Assembly (NCBI GenBank): GCA_963575745.1
Contig: CAUYUJ010009447.1
Span: 308,523-372,522 of the forward strand
Length of the DNA stretch: 64,000 bases
Source of the DNA: Prorocentrum cordatum
Taxonomy: Eukaryota; Sar; Dinophyceae; Prorocentrales; Prorocentraceae
Reading direction: 5' to 3'
The notes under the pieces are model-generated. The model did no database searches. It had not been told where the DNA came from and worked only from the letters and a program-made list of their open reading frames with translations. This document shows, one piece after another, positions 37,413 through 47,806 of this stretch. The position numbers and the translations under genes are program-made. Position 1 is the first letter of the stretch. Each line of letters opens with the position of its first letter.

Positions 37413-37569
37413 CTCTGTGCGTGTCTGTCTGTGTGTGCGTGTTTTCTTTAGCTCCCGGAGAGTGGCCAGAAGGAGCCCGAGGAAACCCTGGCAAGGCGCG
37501 CGCCGCTTCGGTCCCCTGAGGGAGGGGGGCCCCGAGCCGCGCCGGGTGCCCGGCCTGGCCACACGGAGG

Positions 37570-38210
37570 AGGAGGAGGAGGAGAAAGGGAGGCGGATTAG
37601 GAGGAGGAGGAGGAGGAGGAGGAGGAGGAGGAGGAGGAGGAGGAGGAGGAGGAGTGAGGAGGAGGGGGGGGAGGGGGAGGAGGAAGGAGGAGGAGGAGGA
37701 GGCGGAGGGGCGGAGGATGAGGAGAAGAAGGAGGGGGAGGAGGAAGGAGGAGGAGGAGGAGGAGAGGGAGGAGGAGGAGAGGAGGAGGGAGGAGGAGGAG
37801 GGAGGAGGAGGAAGGGGGGGGGGGGGGACGGAGGAGGAGGAGGAGGAGGCGGAGGGGGAGGAACATAGAAGGGGGGACACAAAAAAAAAGGAGGGGGAGG
37901 AGGAGGAGGAGGAGGAAGGAGGAGGAGGAGGAGAGGAAGAGGAGGAGAGGAGGAGGAGGAGTTTTAGGAGGAGGAATTAGGAGGAGGAGGATATTAGGAG
38001 GAAGGGGAGGAGGAGGCGGAGACAGAGGCGGAAGCGGAGGCGGAGGCGGACGCGGAGGCGGAGGCGGAGGAGAGGAGGAGGAGGAAGAGGAGGAGGAGGA
38101 GGGGGAGGAGGAGGAGGAGGGGAGGAGGAGGAGGAGGAGGAGGAGGAGGAGGAGGAGGAGGAGGAGGAGGAGGAGAGGAGGAGGAGAGGGAGGAGGAGAG
38201 GAGGAGGAGA
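37570..38210. repeat. (GGA)n tract at the 3' side of the LINE
   Basis: About 640 bp of GGA/GGAGGC/GAGGAG triplets with short interruptions, running up to the 3' end of the non-LTR element. Confidence 0.95.
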
Positions 38211-38429
38211 GCAGCGGAGAGCAGCGGCAGGACGTCGCGTCGGCCAGGCCAACTAGACGCAGCACAGGCGGCCAGGGGGCCGCAGCCTCAGGGGAGGCCA
38301 GTGATGCCGATCACGTCGACGGACGCGAAGGGCGGCGCGCTGGGGCCAGACCGCCGCGCAGCGCCGTGCGGCGAGCCGCTGGGGCCAGAACGCCACGCAG
38401 CGGCTGCCCGTGCCAGGAGAGGCCGACCC

Positions 38430-41400
38430 TCAACCACTTCTCCGTCGCCTCCTGCGTCCCGCATTCCACGGCACCGAAGGCGCTCTGAGCGGGCCAATGG
38501 GCGGTGGCTGCCCTTCCCGCCGCAGCTCGGCCAGCCACGTCCGCAGGCACACGTAGTCGTAGCGCCGCATGCAGTCCGACACGATCCTCTGCGACCGCGT
38601 CAGCGTGTGGCGCCACCTGTAGTAGGCCCGCCTCGCGGGCATGCCAGTCCCCCAGGCCCGCTCGCAGATCTCCTCGGCCATCTCCTCGGCCGTCCTCCCA
38701 CGCGCCCGCAGCCTGGTGGCGAAGCGCGGCTGGGACAGGATCTGCGTGACGTAGCCGACGCAGTGGTCGAGCCACTCGCTGTGGCACTCCATCGTCTCGC
38801 CGACCTCGGGAGCCTGGGTCCAGTACCGCGCCCATCCAGCGACCTGCAGCTCAAGCCTGGGCGCGACGCTGCGCCTCGGCTGCGCTGGCTCAGGCCGAGC
38901 CACCGCAACTCTGCCAGCACTCAGGGCGGGGCCGCACACACGGTCGGCACTTGCAGGTCCCCTGCCACCCCTGGTGCTGGCCATGCACATGCCGTCGCGG
39001 TCCGCGTCGCTTCCTGGGCTCAGGGCGGGGCCGCACTCACGCACGCACATTGCAGGTCCCCTGCCACCCCTGGCCCAGGCCGTAATCCGTCGCCGCTCGG
39101 GGTGGGTGCTGGTGCTCAGGGCGGGGCCGCACTCAGGACCGCAGACTGCAGGTCCCCTGCCACCCCTGGCACCAGCCGTAGCTGCACGTGGACACGCCTC
39201 CCCAGAAGCCAGCTGCGGCTGCCGCTGGTCCTCCTCAGGCGACGCCGCTTCCAGAGACCCGCTGCCAGTGCCCAGGGCGGGGCCGCACACAGGACTGCAC
39301 TTTGCAGGTCCCCTGCCACCCCTGGCGCTGGCCATACCCTTGCCGTCGCGGTCCTCGTCGCATCCTGGGCTCAGGGCGGGGCCGCACTCACGCACGCACA
39401 TTGCAGGTCCCCTGCCACCCCTGGCCCAGGCCGTAAATCGTCGCCGCACGCGGTGGGCCTGGCTGCCGTCGCCGCCAGTGCCCAAGGTGGGGCCGCACTC
39501 AGGGTCGCGGCTTGCAGGCCTCCTGCCACCCTTGTCACTGGCCATGCCTGGCAGCGCCCGCTGCGAGTTGTCAGACCTGCCAGCACTCAGGGCGGGGCCG
39601 CACTCGCGACCGCACTTTGCAGGTCCCCTGCCACCCCTGGTGCTGGCCATATCGGTAGTCGAGAACGGCTGCGGCGGGCTGCTCATGTCCTGAGGGCTGG
39701 TCACGGCGCCCTCCTGGTGGTCCGTGGTCAGCGTCACCTCGTGTGCCAGGTCACACCTCAAGGGCGCAGGCAGCCGCGACGGCCCCGCCGCCAGACAGGC
39801 ATCGACCACCCCCACGTCTGGGGCAGCTGGCGGCGGCTGGAGCGTCACCAGTCCAGTGGTGCCCCCGTCGGGGCATTGGTGCGCTCCATAGGCCGAGGGC
39901 AAGCTGCCGTCGGCCATGTCTCCCTCATCACGCTGCGCGCCGCTGGCGGCTGCTGGACCACGTTCGGCTAGCAGATGCTGCTGCCTTCGCTGCATCCGTT
40001 CCAGGAGCTCCTGCCGTCGCACCCGCCAAGCAGGCTTCTTGGTCTGGACTGCGTCGGACCCTCCAGCCCCTGCAGGCACCTCGCGCGTCTCGTGGTCCTG
40101 GCCAGGCCTGGTCGCCTCGCCCTGTTCCTTCTGCGCGTGCCTGCCGCTTGGCCGCTCTGCAGCGCCGTCGCCCCCAGAGGCCATGTCGCCCGCGGCCGCG
40201 CTGGCCGCCGCTGTGGCCCATGTTCTGGGGCCGTCTGGAGCCTCGCCTGCACCTCCCCAAGTGAGCACCTTTCCTGTCTTGGGGTGCAGCCCTTGGCTGA
40301 GCTTCTTGAGCCGCGCCCTGAGGTTGGACAGGTAGGTGCGCTGGTTCTTGCCCTCGGCGCTGGGCGGGCCAGCGCAGGGCGCAGCCAGGGCCAGTGAGGA
40401 GCCTGTCGCCGCCCACGCCACGCATACCTCGCAGTAGATGGTGGGCCCTGCGCGCCTCAGCCTGTGCCCCTGCATCTCGATGGTGCCGTCCCCTGAGCCC
40501 CAGGGGGCAGGCTCGGCTGGCCTGGGCCCCGCATCTTCGGGGCACGCCGCTCGCTCGATCGCCTGCATAGCGAACTCGCCCGCCTCCGAGACCACAATGG
40601 GCTGCGCGCCGACGTGCGCGATGATGGCCTCGGCCCGCAGCGCGGTGTACTGGCTGGCCTCGCAAGCTGAACGCGCGAACTGCGTCCATGTGGGCCCCGT
40701 CTGCCCGCTGGTCTGCCTGCAGCAAGCGCGGCACAGCACCACCGCCGTCCCGTTCAGGCGAACCAGGGAGTGGCTGATCACAGTCGCCGCCTGCACCTTG
40801 GGCACCTTTGGCGGGCGGGCTGTCTGCTCGGGCGCATCCCAGCGGCCTGCGTGCATCGTCCTCTGCATCGCCCAGCCGACGTACTTTGCCAGGCTCTTGT
40901 AGTGTTGCAGCTCGATGTTGTAGAACTCCTCGTACACCTTCGACACGGTGTGCTGCATGGCTCCTTGCCGAGCGAACCAGTCGGCCCACATGTTGCCAGA
41001 GTACAGCAGCGGGTGGAGGCCTCGGTCCAAGTACGCATCCATGTCCTGATGCGCGGGGATCCATCTCACTTCAGGCCGCGCTGGCTGGGCACGAATCCGT
41101 CTCCACACTGTGGCATGTGCCGCTCGCGCCTCCTCTAGCTCCTGCCCCCAGTGGCTGCATTCCTTCTCCATCGACAGAAGGTCGGTGAAGACGAACTCGA
41201 GCTGCGGCCCCGCGAGCCGCAATGCCTGCAGCAGCGCGTGCCTCTCCGCGCGCCCGACCGTCTGGAGCGGCCCTGGCAGCGCCCCGAACGCCGCCCGAAC
41301 AGGCAGTCCCTGGAGGGAAAGCTGCACGAAGGCCCATCCGCAGCGCCTCAGCTCGGGCATGCTGGACGCGAAGCCTGAGCCATCGGTGAAGACGGCGTTG

Positions 41401-44400
41401 CTGCAGGAAGCCGTGTCCGCCCCTTGGCTAGGCCAGCAGCCCCAGAACTTCACCTCGGCCTGCTCCGCGGCGGGCGGCACGAATGGCGGCATGCAGGGCA
41501 AGCACATTTGGAAGTCGGCGCTCTCGAAGCTGCCGCCCTCCTGCAGGCCTTTGTCGCACATGAAGGTGCGGATGGCCTGCATCGGCTCGGGCGGCAGCTG
41601 CTCGTCCTGCTCCTCCTCTGTGAGCGGCTGCACGAGTACCTCGCAGCCGAAAAATCTGTGCCCAGGCGAGTCGGACGGATGTCCGCAGGCCCTGCAATTC
41701 GGCGCCGCCGCCAGCCCAAGGTCGTGCTGGGCCTGTTGCGTCCAGGCCACCGTCGCCCAGTGGTGACGCAGGCTGGTGGCCGACGGGCCCTCCGCCAAAG
41801 CCGCGCGCCCGTCGCCCACGCAGAGCCGCATGGCCCGCACCCAAGGCTTGACCTCGCCGTGCTGGCGGTGGTGCGCCGCGATCTGCCTCGCCTGCCAGCG
41901 TTGCACGCCGCCGGTCAGATGCATCCTGACGTCCTTCGGGCACGTGGTGAGGAGGTTGATCGCCGTATCCTGGTCGGTGACCAGGGTCGTGCTGGAGTAC
42001 ATGTGCCATCCGATGCGCCAGAGCGTCAGCGTGACGGAGGCGATGGGACCGCGAGCCCCTGCCCAGGACGGGCGCCCCACGAGCCGCTCCGTGACCTTGG
42101 CCCAGGCCCTGTGGAGCCTAGCCAGGGAGGTGCGTTGTTCCCAGATCCAGCTGGCGTATCGGCAAACGATGTCGCAGGTGGCGCCGTAGATGGGGTCGTA
42201 CTCGCGCGCCTTCTGCGTGGCTAAATACACCGTGACGCTCGATGCACCTGGCCGAGCCCCTGCAAGCCTGCCAGCCTCGGCCCTCAGCACCTGCAGCGCA
42301 TCGTCGGTGAGCCCTGACACCCCAGCACCGTGCGCCGCACTCGGCATGAGGCCCGTCTTCCACAGGCAGGTAGCGCGCCTGCCCACTGCCCCTCTGAAAG
42401 CTGCCAACTTGCCGCGCCGCTCCTTGAGCTGCCGCACCCGCTTTGCCGTCTGGAGCCTAGCGATTCTGCGCCCGCCCAGATCGTGCCCCAGGTTGCGGGC
42501 CCAGCGCATCTTGGTCAGCTTGCGGGCCGCCGCGTGTCGGGCACACTCGCGAGCAGCCGCGTCCGATGAGACCAAGTAGCCCGACTTGGTGGGCTGCACG
42601 ACAATGCCTCGCTCTTGGGCGCCCTCTCGGAACCTGGTGGTGGCCGCCCAAAGCACGCCCAGTTGCGAGAGCCGCCTCCCGCGCCACTGCAAGGTGACGT
42701 CGTCGATGAGGGCCCTCGGGGTGACGCCTGCATCTCGCACCTGCTCGAGCAGCCTGAACATGAGCAAGGTGACCATGGCACAGGCGTGAGTGCATCCTGC
42801 GAGCACGCCCTGATGTGACACGACCGCGTAGGACACCGAGCCGAAAGCTTGCAGCCGCCTCGGCTGCCTGTATAGCTCAATCAACATCCAGACCAACCGC
42901 AGCGGCATGCCCAGCAGCCGCGCCTCGATGAGTAGCCACTCGGGCTTAATCGTCTCAAAGAACTTCCAGGCGTCCAGCATGACGATTACGACGTGCTCGT
43001 CCAGGCAGTCCGATACCTCCGTCTCAAGGTTGAGGTCGAAGGCGGAGTCGGAGGACGATCTGCCGCCGCCCATGCCCCAAATGCTGGCATTGGGGTGCGC
43101 CGTCAGCCACGCCTTGGACGTCGAGGCACGAGCCCTCGACCACCATCGGATTAGCGAGTGCATCAGCGTGATCAGCCTGCAGCCGCCAGAGGCCTTGGGG
43201 ATGCGGCACATAGCGTGCCACAGCCTTTCGCTGGGCCAAGCCCCCAGCGCCTCGCACTTCATGAAGAGCTGGCCGCAGGTGTAAACGCCGTCGTCCGTGA
43301 GAAAGGTGAGCGCGCGCATGCCGATCTGCGCTGGGCCGAGCGCCGTGGTGGTGGGGAAGCTGCAGGCGGCCCGCTGCAGCGCCTCCACGGTGAGGTCTTC
43401 GAGGTCGTCCCATTCGTCGAAGTCAGCTGGCCTTTCCAGCGCCTCGAGCTTGTGGCACGACCAGACGTCCTCCCAGGCCTTCATCTCCCGGTCGCAGATC
43501 AGGTGCTGGCTGGCGACCTGCTGCTGCGGGACGAAGGTCTGGGCGAGCCGTCCAGTGGTGAGCTCGGTGTGGGTGCCCTGCCATTGCGCCAGCACCTCCT
43601 GCATCGCCCGCAGCTTGGTGAAGCGGTGCGCCTTGCCAGCGCCGTTCCGCAGGCTGTCGTTGGCCCACTGGATCCAGCTCTGCTGCCTGACCTTGAGCGC
43701 GTCCGCGTGGGCGTCCTTGGCGAACTGGACGATGCGGCCCGCCTGCTCCAGGAAGTCGGTGTTGCCGATCACGCGAAAGCCCTGCTCGAAGAAGGACCTC
43801 ACCCAATGCGGGAGCAGTGCTAGCGTCTTCTTGCTGTCCATAACCACGCGCCCATACTCCAAAGCCCTCACGACGAAGTCCGCCAGCTCGTGGTACTGCT
43901 CAGGGACAAGGGAGCACTGCAGGCTGGCGGTTTGCAGCCTCCTGCTGGCCTTCGCGAGGAACGCGCTGACCCCCATGAAGTGACGCGCCCATCGGCCCGC
44001 GACCTTGGCCGCGATGACATCAGGCCCCAATCGGACACGCTGCCCTTGCGGCTTCCACTTGACTGGCGCCAGCTTGGTCGCAATGGGCCCCGCACGTCCT
44101 TCGAACCGCCTGCGCGCTTCGCCAACCTGGTCGTAGCGGTCCAACAGCTCCTGCTCCAAGGTGCTGACGACGGCGTCCCAGGCTGCTGGCAGCTCCTCGG
44201 CGCTGGTTGTGGCGCGCACCTGGGCCAAAGTGGGCGCCCAGTCCTCGACACCGCGGCTGCAGCCGATGGGCGGCACCGCTGGAATCGCCCTGGGGGCGAT
44301 CGGGATCCTCACGCGCATGTCCAGGTCGGCGGCACGCAGCTCCATGTTGACAGGGAGGTGCGGGGAGGTGATGCCCAACTCATCCACTCTCGGAGCCGAG

Positions 44401-45041
44401 ATGCGGCTGGCCAGGTTTGCACCGACCAGAAAGTAGTCCAGCACCGAGCCGCTGCCCGCCTGTGGGCGGCAGGTGTCGGCCGACGGCGCTAGCCAGAGGC
44501 CCCCCGCCTTTTCCAACTGCGCCAGGGGCAGGCAGCTGGGAGGCCCATTGAAGTCGCCGCCGACGATCCAATCGATGCCCGAGGCCGTGAGCTTCGTGAG
44601 GTAGCGAGTGAGCGCGCCGAAGATGCTTCGGTTCACGTCGTTCATGCCAACGCTGTCGACCAGGTAGGCCGACACGAAGACAATGCCGCCACGGACTCCC
44701 CAGTGCACGTGGGCGGCCACCAGTCGCCCTGGCCACAGTGTCGCCGAGGGCAGCAGCGGCGGGGCCGTGACGGGGATGTTCTTGCGGGCCAAGACCGCGA
44801 CGCCGCCCGTAGTGCCCTCCGCGGAGGTGGGGCCTGCCACTGCTGGCGCCCAGATGCCCGCGAACCCGTGATCCAGCACCTCGTGCTGCAGGTCGGCGAG
44901 CTTCGCCTCGTCCCGTCGGTGATGCTCCTGGACGAGAACGACGTGCGACTCGAGGGTCTCTAGGCACGGCGCCAATGAACCCCAGGAAGTCACGTTGCTG
45001 GTAGTGATAGTGCCTTTCGCCATCGCAAGTGTGCAGGACAT
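38430..45041 (-). CDS. LINE ORF2: endonuclease-reverse transcriptase-RNase H polyprotein
   Basis: 2203 aa from ATG at 45041, 13 bases after the ORF1 stop. This start is chosen because the same frame further upstream is Arg/Ser-rich noise overlapping ORF1. Residues ~10-235 are an endonuclease/exonuclease/phosphatase domain (NVTSW, VQEHH, GGDFNG, LDYFLV, SPHLPV). RT at ~600-850 has motif A VIVMLDAWKFFE (Asp ~690) and motif C ALIDDVTL (~780). A CCHC finger CRACG...GHRFFGC is at ~1115-1133. RNase H at ~1213-1360 keeps FTDGSG, AERHAL, FTDLLS, PAHQD and ADWFA. Cys pairs (LCRACC, YCEVC) follow. At ~1800-2040 there are seven GGRGPA..C...CGPAL repeats, and a helical tail ends in Arg-rich sequence. It would nick target DNA and copy the element RNA. 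Confidence 0.92.
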   Translation of the reverse strand: MSCTLAMAKGTITTSNVTSWGSLAPCLETLESHVVLVQEHHRRDEAKLADLQHEVLDHGFAGIWAPAVAGPTSAEGTTGGVAVLARKNIPVTAPPLLPSATLWPGRLVAAHVHWGVRGGIVFVSAYLVDSVGMNDVNRSIFGALTRYLTKLTASGIDWIVGGDFNGPPSCLPLAQLEKAGGLWLAPSADTCRPQAGSGSVLDYFLVGANLASRISAPRVDELGITSPHLPVNMELRAADLDMRVRIPIAPRAIPAVPPIGCSRGVEDWAPTLAQVRATTSAEELPAAWDAVVSTLEQELLDRYDQVGEARRRFEGRAGPIATKLAPVKWKPQGQRVRLGPDVIAAKVAGRWARHFMGVSAFLAKASRRLQTASLQCSLVPEQYHELADFVVRALEYGRVVMDSKKTLALLPHWVRSFFEQGFRVIGNTDFLEQAGRIVQFAKDAHADALKVRQQSWIQWANDSLRNGAGKAHRFTKLRAMQEVLAQWQGTHTELTTGRLAQTFVPQQQVASQHLICDREMKAWEDVWSCHKLEALERPADFDEWDDLEDLTVEALQRAACSFPTTTALGPAQIGMRALTFLTDDGVYTCGQLFMKCEALGAWPSERLWHAMCRIPKASGGCRLITLMHSLIRWWSRARASTSKAWLTAHPNASIWGMGGGRSSSDSAFDLNLETEVSDCLDEHVVIVMLDAWKFFETIKPEWLLIEARLLGMPLRLVWMLIELYRQPRRLQAFGSVSYAVVSHQGVLAGCTHACAMVTLLMFRLLEQVRDAGVTPRALIDDVTLQWRGRRLSQLGVLWAATTRFREGAQERGIVVQPTKSGYLVSSDAAARECARHAAARKLTKMRWARNLGHDLGGRRIARLQTAKRVRQLKERRGKLAAFRGAVGRRATCLWKTGLMPSAAHGAGVSGLTDDALQVLRAEAGRLAGARPGASSVTVYLATQKAREYDPIYGATCDIVCRYASWIWEQRTSLARLHRAWAKVTERLVGRPSWAGARGPIASVTLTLWRIGWHMYSSTTLVTDQDTAINLLTTCPKDVRMHLTGGVQRWQARQIAAHHRQHGEVKPWVRAMRLCVGDGRAALAEGPSATSLRHHWATVAWTQQAQHDLGLAAAPNCRACGHPSDSPGHRFFGCEVLVQPLTEEEQDEQLPPEPMQAIRTFMCDKGLQEGGSFESADFQMCLPCMPPFVPPAAEQAEVKFWGCWPSQGADTASCSNAVFTDGSGFASSMPELRRCGWAFVQLSLQGLPVRAAFGALPGPLQTVGRAERHALLQALRLAGPQLEFVFTDLLSMEKECSHWGQELEEARAAHATVWRRIRAQPARPEVRWIPAHQDMDAYLDRGLHPLLYSGNMWADWFARQGAMQHTVSKVYEEFYNIELQHYKSLAKYVGWAMQRTMHAGRWDAPEQTARPPKVPKVQAATVISHSLVRLNGTAVVLCRACCRQTSGQTGPTWTQFARSACEASQYTALRAEAIIAHVGAQPIVVSEAGEFAMQAIERAACPEDAGPRPAEPAPWGSGDGTIEMQGHRLRRAGPTIYCEVCVAWAATGSSLALAAPCAGPPSAEGKNQRTYLSNLRARLKKLSQGLHPKTGKVLTWGGAGEAPDGPRTWATAAASAAAGDMASGGDGAAERPSGRHAQKEQGEATRPGQDHETREVPAGAGGSDAVQTKKPAWRVRRQELLERMQRRQQHLLAERGPAAASGAQRDEGDMADGSLPSAYGAHQCPDGGTTGLVTLQPPPAAPDVGVVDACLAAGPSRLPAPLRCDLAHEVTLTTDHQEGAVTSPQDMSSPPQPFSTTDMASTRGGRGPAKCGRECGPALSAGRSDNSQRALPGMASDKGGRRPASRDPECGPTLGTGGDGSQAHRVRRRFTAWARGGRGPAMCVRECGPALSPGCDEDRDGKGMASARGGRGPAKCSPVCGPALGTGSGSLEAASPEEDQRQPQLASGEACPRAATAGARGGRGPAVCGPECGPALSTSTHPERRRITAWARGGRGPAMCVRECGPALSPGSDADRDGMCMASTRGGRGPASADRVCGPALSAGRVAVARPEPAQPRRSVAPRLELQVAGWARYWTQAPEVGETMECHSEWLDHCVGYVTQILSQPRFATRLRARGRTAEEMAEEICERAWGTGMPARRAYYRWRHTLTRSQRIVSDCMRRYDYVCLRTWLAELRREGQPPPIGPLRAPSVPWNAGRRRRRRSG
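38920..39640 (-). repeat. Seven-fold GGRGPA-C-x3-C-GPAL repeat inside ORF2
   Basis: Tandem units of about 98-150 bp encode (A/S)RGGRGPAxCxxxCGPALS plus a variable Asp/Arg/Ser-rich spacer. On the plus strand each unit shows CAGGGCGGGGCCGCAC and GCAGGTCCCCTGCCACCC. One or two units lost a Cys. Possible metal-binding or nucleic-acid-binding tail (inference). Confidence 0.85.
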
Positions 45042-45054
45042 CGCGATGATGAGC

Positions 45055-46342
45055 TTAGTAAGGATTGAAGCCCCTGACGGCCAGCTCCGTGGCGCGCGCC
45101 AGCATGGCGTCGCTGGTCTCCTCTGCTGGCCCTGGTGAGAACGCCGCCATGGTCTGCCGCAGCTTCTCGGGCTCCATCGCGGCGGGATCCCAGCGCGGCG
45201 CTGCGGCTGCAGGGGCGGCGCCGCCTGCAGTGCCTGCGCCATGCGCGGCGGCGGCGGCGTCGTCTCCCTCGACGGACGCTGCAGGGGTGCGAGGGGCGCT
45301 CGCTGCCTCCGTGGCGGCGGCCCGCTCGCGCTGCCGCCGCAGCATGAGCTCCTGGAGGGGCCCGCCGAGCGCCGAGGCCAGCCGCTGCGGCAAATCGCCC
45401 GCGGTCTGCATGGTGTCGTCGGGGTGAGCGGCCAGCGCACCGCTGAGAGCCTGCGCCAGGTCGCCGAGGGTGAGGCCGCCCGTGTTCTTGATGACGTCGT
45501 GCTCCATGGACTGCCCAGGCGGACGATCCTCTGGCGCGACTGGGACCTGCTGCTGGAGTGCCGACTGCTCCGCCTGGAGGGCCACCTGCTGCGCCTTGAG
45601 CTCTCTGACACCATGCCGCTTGAGCTCCAGCTCGTCTTGCGCCTTCTTGACACGGTCCTCCGCCTCGCGCTCGGCCAGCTCCATCTTGCTGAGTTTGTCC
45701 GCCAGATTCTTCTGCCTGTGGGCCAGCGCCTGCACCCGCGCGTGGAGCGGCTTGGCGGCGAAGAGCCTGTCCTTGGCGGCGGCGAGCCTGCGCTTGAGAT
45801 CCTCCCGCGGGCCCGTGGCCCAGTCGTGCTGCACGTCCTTGAGCGTGGCCAGGCCTGCCTCGCACACCTTGATCTCGCTCGCAGCCGAGGCGTCCTCGCC
45901 TGACTTGCCGTCGTCCACGTGCATGGCCGCGGCCCCGCCCTGGTCGGACTCCTGCGTACGAAGCTTCTTCCTGGCAGCGTCGAGCTCCGCCCGCATGGCC
46001 GCGAGCTCGCCCTCGAGCTTGCCCTCGGCCGTCCACGGGGCCCGCTTCTTGCCCTTGGCTGGGGCCCGCATCGAGGGCTCCTTCGGCGGCACAGGCCCGC
46101 CGTACACGTCCTTCTTGTGGAGCCTGCACCCTTGGCACTTGAGCGAGGTCCCGAAGTTGATGAGCGGCTTGCCGCGCTTCGTCGTACAGCTCCTGCAAGC
46201 CCAGTCCTGGCGTTCCTTCGGCCGGCGCCAGCCATGGTGCTGCAGTCTGCACTTGGGATCGAGAAGGGGCTGTCGGGCTCAAGAGCCCTGGCACTGGCCG
46301 CGGACTAGCGGTATCCACTTGTTCCACTGTGGAACTAGGCAT
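45055..46342 (-). CDS. LINE ORF1: zinc-finger/coiled-coil RNA-binding-type protein, one frame change
   Basis: The ATG at 46342 follows the spliced leader directly and opens a frame (MPSSTVEQVDTASPRP). The recognisable protein lies one frame away, open from 46278 (after a TGA at 46279-46281) to the stop at 45055. That frame has a Cys-rich segment (KCRLQHHGW ... DWACRSC ... LKCQGCRLHKKD) that looks like paired zinc knuckles. A long coiled coil follows (LEGELAAMRAELDAARKKL, LADKLSKMELAEREAEDRVK), then an Ala/Pro-rich C-terminal part. LINE ORF1 proteins usually bind element RNA and trimerise through a coiled coil. Either a one-base change disables the start, or translation begins or shifts elsewhere. 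The first in-frame ATG is at 46071. Confidence 0.75.
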
Positions 46343-46364
46343 CTTGAGCCAAAATGGCTACGGA
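46343..46364 (-). other. Dinoflagellate spliced-leader (DinoSL) sequence in genomic DNA
   Basis: All 22 bases match the published DinoSL consensus, read as TCCGTAGCC then ATTTTGGCTCAAG on the minus strand. There is no splice-donor GT after it, so this is not an SL RNA gene: the next base starts the ORF1 ATG. It is the fossil of a trans-spliced mRNA that was reverse transcribed. Upstream DNA is immediately (GGA)n. Confidence 0.95.
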
Positions 46365-46503
46365 GGGGGAGGAGGAGGAGGAGGAGGAGGAGGAGGAGGA
46401 GGAGGAGGAGGAAGGGGATGGGGAGGGGGAGGGGGAGGAGGAGGACAAGGAGGAGGAGGAGGAGGAGGAGGAGGAGGAGGAGGAGGAGGAGGAGGAGGAG
46501 GAG
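46365..46503. repeat. (GGA)n tract at the 5' side of the LINE
   Basis: About 139 bp of GGA triplets with a GGGGATGGGG interruption. Same strand and motif as 37570-38210. Confidence 0.95.
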
Positions 46504-46663: not shown

Positions 46664-46925
46664 GTGCCCCATGGCCCAAGGTACCCCCAGGTTTTCCAAG
46701 GAGGCCAGAGCAACCCTCACGAGGCCCCAGGGGGCCAGGGGCTCCAAGATTCGGCTGCGAGCGAGGGGGGGAGGGAGAAGAAGAAGGGCCTCTCAGAAGG
46801 CGGCGGGACTTCTCAGAAGCCCCTCGCGCCTTCTGAGAGGTTTTTGTTGCTGTCTTCGGGGAAGGCTCGGACAACTTTTCAGAAGGCCGGGGGGCTTCCG
46901 AGCCTTCTGAGAGGGCCCGCCCCTT
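46664..46925 (-). repeat. AGAAGGC dispersed repeat, copy 1
   Basis: Reverse complement of 47563-47806. It shares GGTACCCCCAGG, CCAAGGAGGCCAGAGCAACC, CGGCTGCGAGCGAGGGGG and GCCTTCTGAGAGG-type words. Confidence 0.8.
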
Positions 46926-47562: not shown

Positions 47563-47806
47563 GGAGGAGAAGTCCCCCGCCCTTCTGAGAAGAAGTCCCC
47601 TGAGCTGTTTCCCCGAAGGCACAGCACACTTCCCAGGAGGCGCGAGGGGCTTCTGAGAAGTCCCGCCGCCTTCTGAGAGGCCCTTCTCCTTCTCCCTTCC
47701 CCCCCTCGCTCGCAGCCGAATCTTGGAGCCCCTGGCCCCCTGGGGCCTCGTGAGGGTTGCTCTGGCCTCCTTGGAAATCCTGGGGGTACCTTGGGTACCT
47801 CTGGCC
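47563..47806 (+). repeat. AGAAGGC dispersed repeat, copy 2
   Basis: Inverted partner of 46664-46925 about 640 bp away. Third relative at 59090-59292. Confidence 0.8.

Follow-up and report, generated by a model that had tools for sequence, protein, structure and literature searches.

SLACS and CZAR are LINEs that target spliced-leader exons. For dinoflagellates, a model by Slamovits and Keeling holds that a leader reinserted into the genome is cut at an internal AG by a new round of splicing and persists as a relict just behind the newly added leader (as given in PMC3229502). The type of element behind the resulting retrogenes is left open in PMC6050394, where LTR elements are thought likelier. 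The nearest idea that we found is a proposal, made for Symbiodiniaceae, that LINEs mediated the integration of viral RNAs beside relict leaders (PMC10235124).

The DNA analyzed here, which we call the window, is a stretch of 64,000 nt from the red-tide alga Prorocentrum cordatum. On its minus strand, TCCGTAGCCATTTTGGCTCAAG matches the dinoflagellate spliced leader, DinoSL, at 22 of 22 nt and is the single occurrence in the window (Table 1); no match arose by chance in 100 shuffles, even with 3 mismatches allowed. Behind the leader lies a LINE of ~8,156 nt (about 8.2 kb). As a first-pass annotation of this DNA had stated, the leader stands directly before an ATG (46342-46340), and a (GGA)n array starts at once upstream of it (46362-46503 as called by TRF, GGA on the plus strand). 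An SL RNA gene at this position was rejected, since the leader is followed by ATG and not by GT. Within the 5' flank, a 49-nt stretch (46721-46769) is found again, exactly inverted, at 47701-47749, ~1 kb away.

Table 1. Coordinates of the leader-headed element in the window, and target-site duplications delimited in other copies of its family
Feature	Location	Strand	Remarks
DinoSL	46343..46364	-	22/22 nt; element's first nucleotides
ATG adjoining leader	46340..46342	-	Opens a frame distinct from ORF1
(TCC)n array, element's 5' flank	46365..46503	-	Target sequence; pyrimidine tract on element strand
Hairpin CCGC-TAGTCC-GCGG	46298..46311	-	Begins 31 nt behind leader; covariation
ORF1	45055..46235	-	393 aa in 27/30 copies; start ATG 46235, context CACCATGG; frameshifted near start in window copy
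ORF2	38430..45041	-	2203 aa, open throughout; endonuclease, reverse transcriptase, RNase H-like TDGSG motif
Exo_endo_phos endonuclease	44400..44951	-	PF03372, E 4.2e-9; ORF2 residues 31-214
RVT_1 reverse transcriptase	42570..43202	-	PF00078, E 1.3e-7, over curated cut-off
3' untranslated end	38209..38429	-	Terminates about ...CCTGCCGCTGCTCTCCGCTGCTC; without poly(A)
(TCC)n-rich array, element's 3' flank	37565..38208	-	TRF/sequence
Target-site duplication	L036/L065		~16 nt; ends directly at leader nt 1
Target-site duplication	L037/L066		~30 nt; ends directly at leader nt 1
Target-site duplication	L050/L074		~16 nt; ends directly at leader nt 1

Judged by its sequence, the element belongs to a family of EN-RT non-LTR retrotransposons (LINEs), of which it is a full-length copy. 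Both enzymes of a LINE, endonuclease and reverse transcriptase, are matched in ORF2 (PF03372 and PF00078), the RVT_1 E value coming from a scan of a 461-aa segment, while a scan of the whole ORF2 gave no RVT_1 at E up to 1. The RNase H-like motif was spotted by eye, and RNase_H matched 2 of 15 aligned sequences. The ORF1 protein, which by eye is CxxC zinc-finger-like and coiled-coil-like, had no Pfam match above cut-off. ORF2 and ORF1 of the window are each 99% identical to a deposited P. cordatum protein (P0001 and P0022, respectively). The first-pass description of the copy as nearly intact thus holds for ORF2 and fails for ORF1, which is frameshifted. The 5' truncated copies typical of LINEs also occur (L079 and L080). 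At the other end, 13 of 14 fetched 3' stretches finish closely alike and then pass into differing (TCC)-rich flanks, the L075 stretch being without the end; none of these 13 has poly(A), and the element end runs into its (TCC)n target. Searches for ORF2 relatives in prokaryote and viral contigs gave 2, 0, and 78 pattern matches, of which tblastn confirmed none, and a plasmid collection gave no match.

A first search for further copies used a DNA query of the leader plus the ORF1 start and scored 40 of 1,499 candidates. Thirty-seven of these align from leader nt 1 (34 copies) or nt 2 (3 copies), and the other three start later, one at an N gap and two through 5' truncation. Since this query contained the leader, we searched independently with the 33-nt string behind the leader, which occurs at 105 places in the genome (reversed control, 0). 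All 100 listed copies (of 105) carry leader-derived sequence directly before the same ATG. The leader is at once upstream in 91 of them, exact in 89 and with one mismatch in 2; the remaining 9 are six leaders with one or two changes plus L176, L177, and L180. L176, the sole tandem among the 100 listed family copies, has a full leader followed by the 15-nt relict CCATTTTGGCTCAAG, whereas in L177 the (TCC)n is followed by just the last 17 nt of the leader, and in L180 the leader's 17 nt adjoin an N gap. L175 and L179 have both their leader change and their flank in common, which suggests a single locus that was duplicated. Otherwise, no leader variant recurs at separate loci among the 100 listed, whereas the 5' UTR does have shared variants. 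In 37 copies, 0 of 777 leader letters vary, relative to 52 of 3,293 in the 89 columns that follow, where there are also 103 gap cells, and 70 of 6,660 in the 180 columns behind those. Counted by columns, this test of invariance is weak (0/21 variable versus 37/269, about P 0.05). Its copies were picked by score using a query that contained the leader, and conservation between families extends over the ~50 nt behind the leader as well.

The upstream flanks of 30 copies are unrelated save for the duplicate pairs L045/L060 and L053/L061, which leaves 28 separate loci; one further pair has a 175-nt upstream match at 86%, and L057 has no flank to compare. Pyrimidines make up 0.87 to 1.0 of the 30 nt that precede the leader in all 29 copies with a flank, relative to a background in which ~1.7% of 30-mers reach 0.85 or more (pyrimidine/purine mean, distal parts of 29 leader loci). 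The family thus has the consistent simple-repeat target of a microsatellite-inserting LINE. Both ends were read in 13 copies. Three of these have delimitable target-site duplications, which hold more than plain (TCC)n and, as is usual for LINEs, vary in length (Table 1); in eight, the only match is of (TCC) type, which would arise from the array itself, and in two (L040/L069 and L044/L072) the criterion used gave no match. The three duplications are the trace to be expected of target-primed insertion of a cDNA that reached leader nt 1. Copies that continue upstream of the leader with element sequence were looked for and not found, and the leader is neither private to the window copy nor part of a larger host repeat, given its presence in 100 of 100 listed copies with differing flanks.

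Exact leader 21-mers number 14,218 in the organism's own 4.13-Gb (4.128-Gb) genome, and at 1,202 places a leader is followed by the exact 15-nt relict (reversed control, 0 in both cases). Counts of retrogenes based on DinoSL can include LINE heads; by another method, 496 and 244 putative leaders were given for two Symbiodinium genomes (PMC8045281). We inspected 96 of the first 100 listed leader sites, which come from the first contigs with no random draw and for which a perfect leader was the search key. A relict lies behind the leader at 27 of the 96 (10 exact, 11 approximate 15-nt, and 6 approximate 22-nt), compared with 2 and 0 matches in 1,245 trials of loose relict tests at other offsets. 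Leader nt 1 is T at 86 sites, C at 5, A at 4, and G at 1. An ATG is joined directly to the leader at 16 sites (1.5 expected at random), and GT follows it at 4, none of which resembles an SL RNA gene by eye. The 30-nt upstream tract is pyrimidine-rich at 39 sites, purine-rich at 18, and neither TCC- nor GGA-type at 39. Of the 19 sites headed by the hairpin described below, 15 have a pyrimidine tract, none a purine tract, and 4 neither, while one other cluster has purine tracts only (4/4: L013, L111, L113, and L152) and further clusters are mixed. Insertion orientation hence seems to be family-specific, although these numbers are small. Five sites (L014, L108, L117, L136, and L167) have a similar start (gccatgaaccg...gaccgcgagtc) and flanks that are neither TCC- nor GGA-type. 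Three near-identical leader-headed units (L132, L133, and L134) form a tandem array within 9 kb of contig C39, at 19904, 25145, and 28181, and the ORFs of two leader-bearing loci, L028 and L033, look host-gene-like by eye.

Both features of published relict leaders are therefore present, namely, a 22-nt leader at the 5' end of a DNA copy and an older leader cut at an internal AG behind a fresh one, the latter 1,202 times in the genome and once among the 100 listed family copies. Heads made of leader plus relict are found in the window family (L176) and in at least two other LINE groups. L012, a hairpin-headed tandem, has endonuclease (E 6.5e-8) and reverse transcriptase (E 1.1e-4, below the curated cut-off) matches behind its leader and no tblastn match to the ORF1/ORF2 set of the window family. 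The L098 tandem has a reverse transcriptase-like region (tblastn E 2e-32 to P0006), its longest ORF being without a Pfam match. The tandems L090, L092, and L099 have the hairpin by pattern, L150 has the hairpin and an approximate relict, and L093 (with two relicts) and L095 have a hairpin-like stretch by eye; judged by their heads, these six are putative LINEs. The LINE L004 (ORF1 45% identical to P0011) starts with a clean leader.

DinoSL was also sought outside this genome, and the pattern was found in one viral contig and two prokaryote contigs, none recognized as a LINE. The viral contig, which is giant-virus-like and AT-rich (IMGVR_UViG_3300045993_001077; L001:1936-2913), has two exact copies. 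Behind the second lies a stretch with a 254-aa ORF and a GC content of 0.494, relative to 0.184 elsewhere in the contig, as would result if a large DNA virus had received a leader-capped dinoflagellate mRNA by retroposition. In a contig filed as a Dehalococcoidia MAG (L003:4334-4354), DinoSL is followed by GT and lies upstream of what by eye is an 18S rRNA-like start; the contig probably comes from a dinoflagellate and was misbinned, and its SL RNA gene would be linked to rDNA. At the extreme edge of another Dehalococcoidia MAG contig (L002:32-52), DinoSL comes after a (TCA)n run, perhaps in a chimera.

The hairpin behind the leader covaries. In 22 sequences, which were picked by eye for showing it, 5 of 5 pairs have changes on both sides, with a score of 0.298 relative to 0.108 for shuffled alignments (0 of 500 reach the score) and at most 0.118 for slid ones. 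Further pair types are unremarkable, being reached by 127 of 500 shuffles, and just 4 of the 22 sequences form the outermost pair. A loose hairpin pattern within 90 nt is found at 19 of the 96 leader sites and at 0 of 95 in a control stretch. Rfam gave no match in the window at gathering score, nor in 45900-46400 at E up to 1, be it to an HDV-like ribozyme of the L1Tc/ingi type or to any other entry, so we rejected the idea that the 5' end of the element belongs to a known RNA family. In the L036, L168, L169, and L170 families, the first ~75 nt are nearly identical, while the ORF1-frame translations have 18 to 30% identity; the module is hence either under strong constraint or swapped between elements.

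The leader-adjacent ATG had been taken for that of ORF1, which proved to be incorrect, as third-position GC puts ORF1 in another frame. P0022 begins MAGAGRKER, and 29 of 30 copies have this same ORF1 start, at the ATG equivalent to 46235. It lies 107 nt downstream of the leader, and the window copy keeps this ATG, its frame shifting soon after. Besides the frameshifted window copy, the exceptions among the 30 ORF1 readings are L060, with a stop after 248 aa, and L063, with no stop in the frame read. The leader-adjacent frame is stop-free over the 2,244 nt (2.2 kb) read in 25 of 30 copies, and in 27 of 30 it contains the early ORF2 peptide MAKG (ORF2 start). It is interrupted in the window copy, L058, L060, L062, and L063; in the window copy, the frameshift ends it after 450 codons. 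The same frameshift lets the window's ORF1 ATG read 2601 codons uninterrupted through ORF2 (38430-46235). In other families, the leader-adjacent frame is stop-free over ~1,450 nt in L168, L169, and L170 and over 1,500 nt in L008, L010, L020, and L022, and it is interrupted in L004 (at 1230), L030, L032, and L172.

In four families, the leader-adjacent frame is free of stops across ORF1, a depletion that synonymous shuffles show to be significant in three of the four (P values of 0.001, 0.0068, 0.0004, and 0.168). The other alternative frame is also depleted, however (17 stops observed versus 40.5 expected), and stops are mildly depleted in parts of ORF2, too. Since general codon context thus accounts for part of the lack of stops, we treat the open leader-adjacent frame as an observation rather than as a selected overlapping gene. 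That the ORF1 ATG may be reached by leaky scanning is an idea and not a result. The suggestion that the element has made the host leader its 5' UTR holds in modified form: the frame running toward ORF2 has the leader for its entire 5' UTR, but ORF1 starts 107 nt lower.

Taken together, these data make it highly probable that the LINE RNA receives the host DinoSL by trans-splicing and that the leader-capped RNA is reverse transcribed to its first nucleotide into (TCC)n. The first-pass annotation had likewise proposed trans-spliced, capped LINE RNA as the insertion template, a proposal supported by the duplications adjoining leader nt 1 and by the leader-plus-relict tandems, L176 among them. The steps based directly on sequence are the leader boundary, the duplications in three copies, the target, and the tandems. 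Read-through RNA across a (TCC)n-embedded copy would bring along a pyrimidine tract and the leader's AGs, the flanking (TCC)n probably acting as the pyrimidine tract of the trans-splice acceptor. The spliceosome would join a new leader to the LINE RNA, and the capped RNA would then be translated. The RNP would nick a (TCC)n array, where the RNA's pyrimidine-rich 3' end may pair with the nicked GGA strand for priming, and would copy the RNA up to leader nt 1 by target-primed reverse transcription; with a cDNA that reaches the very first leader nucleotide, full-length insertions would begin with the leader. Tandems would result from new trans-splicing at an AG inside the old leader, as in the published dinoflagellate retrogene model, and clean heads from splicing at the leader's last AG (CTCAAG/ATG), which would replace the leader in register. 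Re-addition of the leader in every cycle is only a candidate, because there is one tandem in 100 listed copies even though GTAG is the first AG after the tract. Also weighing against this explanation are the weakness of the invariance by columns, the small number of delimitable duplications (3 of 13 copies read at both ends), the 39 of 96 leader sites outside TCC/GGA tracts, and the lack of poly(A) at the 3' ends, whereas trans-spliced host mRNAs are polyadenylated (PMC10666404).

More tentatively, the cycle could be independent of a promoter, an extension that we consider possible but somewhat doubtful. The orientation of insertion would put the pyrimidine tract directly before the leader copy, such that (TCC)n and the leader's AGs would form a ready acceptor, rebuilt at each insertion, and any read-through transcript would yield freshly capped LINE RNA. 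The leader would also serve as a 22-nt 5' UTR up to the first of two starts. This first ATG would start a frame that crosses ORF1 and reaches into ORF2, while leaky scanning to the second, which has a strong context, would yield ORF1.

The main rival to trans-splicing of the LINE RNA with insertion of the capped template is that the leader was gained by past trans-splicing and is now an encoded 5' end, with an internal promoter that starts transcription at leader nt 1; the leader would then merely be copied along, as happens with the 5' UTRs of LINEs that have internal promoters. Under either explanation, LINE RNA must have been trans-spliced at least once. Clean heads prevail, with one tandem per 100 listed copies, and the next ~50 nt, with their covarying hairpin, are conserved across families, as would be expected of a downstream promoter or RNA signal. 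However, an encoded leader sits poorly with the tandems and degraded relicts behind perfect leaders, both in the window family and in other leader-headed elements, and with the lack of leader variants common to separate loci. It also demands that transcription start exactly at leader nt 1 with any flank. We therefore consider it unlikely, though far from negligible. A second possibility, which we rate as serious if a little short of even, is that nothing special is involved: dinoflagellate nuclear mRNAs are generally trans-spliced, LINE RNA among them, without the leader contributing to how well the element does. This reading agrees with what is generally known of DinoSL and with the relict leaders published for retrogenes (PMC6050394 and PMC3229502), as well as with the leader-bearing, host-gene-like L028 and L033, but it leaves unexplained the excess of ATGs joined to the leader, the hairpin at ~+30 in 19 of 96 sites and none of 95 controls, and the pyrimidine tracts before 15 of 19 hairpin sites against a background of ~1.7%. 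It is compatible with the explanation that we prefer as far as the template is concerned and is a rival only with regard to function.

The remaining two alternatives are both very improbable. Spliced-leader exons are known LINE targets (PMC4640811), and the leader could in principle be target DNA of an element of the SLACS, CZAR, or NeSL-1 type. In the three delimitable cases, though, the target-site duplications enclose the leader, which forms the 5' end of the element, the flanks are (TCC)n, and the few sites with GT behind the leader do not look like SL genes by eye; a leader gene as the insertion target was rejected on these grounds. A single chimera, retrogene fusion, or assembly artefact might be suspected at an array-rich locus that is hard to assemble, all the more as the first-pass annotation rested on one copy, and was rejected in view of the 28 separate loci with different flanks among 30 copies and the 105 family heads.

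The cycle that we favor would join relict leaders and the abundant LINEs of dinoflagellates, known separately, into one testable scheme, and it offers concrete machinery for the recycling of mRNA, for which PMC6050394 states the enzyme to be unknown. If this is correct, host trans-splicing would supply a LINE with its 5' end, and the target might supply the splice signal, unlike in L1Tc of trypanosomatids, whose RNA is unspliced (PMC8190864). In the accessible literature that was searched, which included PMC7789003, PMC11453091, and PMC4233971, we came across no LINE described as beginning with a spliced leader.

Of the known systems, DinoSL relict retrogenes (PMC3229502, PMC6050394, and PMC12014239) resemble this element in the 5' leader on reverse-transcribed copies, the truncation at AG, and the degraded relicts. 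They differ in being host genes copied by an unidentified enzyme, whereas here the RNA would be that of an autonomous EN-RT element, with 28 separate loci read, delimitable duplications in three, and pyrimidine-tract targets. The trypanosomatid L1Tc/ingi elements with Pr77 (PMC8190864) are likewise LINEs with a structured 5' signal in hosts with polycistronic transcription and leader trans-splicing, but the transcripts driven by Pr77 are unspliced and Pr77 contains an HDV-like ribozyme, while the 5' end here is the leader. Caenorhabditis elegans Cer1 is a retroelement with an SL acceptor site and an SL1-bearing mRNA; it is, however, an LTR element, and its 8-kb RNA is not trans-spliced at that site (PMC3315495). 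Microsatellite-specific non-LTR elements share insertion into simple repeats (PMC4640811; Kojima and Fujiwara 2004, cited there), yet those clades, such as the (TG)n-specific Togen, have a restriction-like endonuclease (PMC4640811), whereas the P. cordatum LINE has an EEP-type endonuclease, a (TCC)n target used in one orientation, and the leader at the junction. Finally, SLACS, CZAR, and NeSL-1 also place a LINE beside a spliced-leader exon, but for them the leader gene is the target, whereas here the leader is part of the element.
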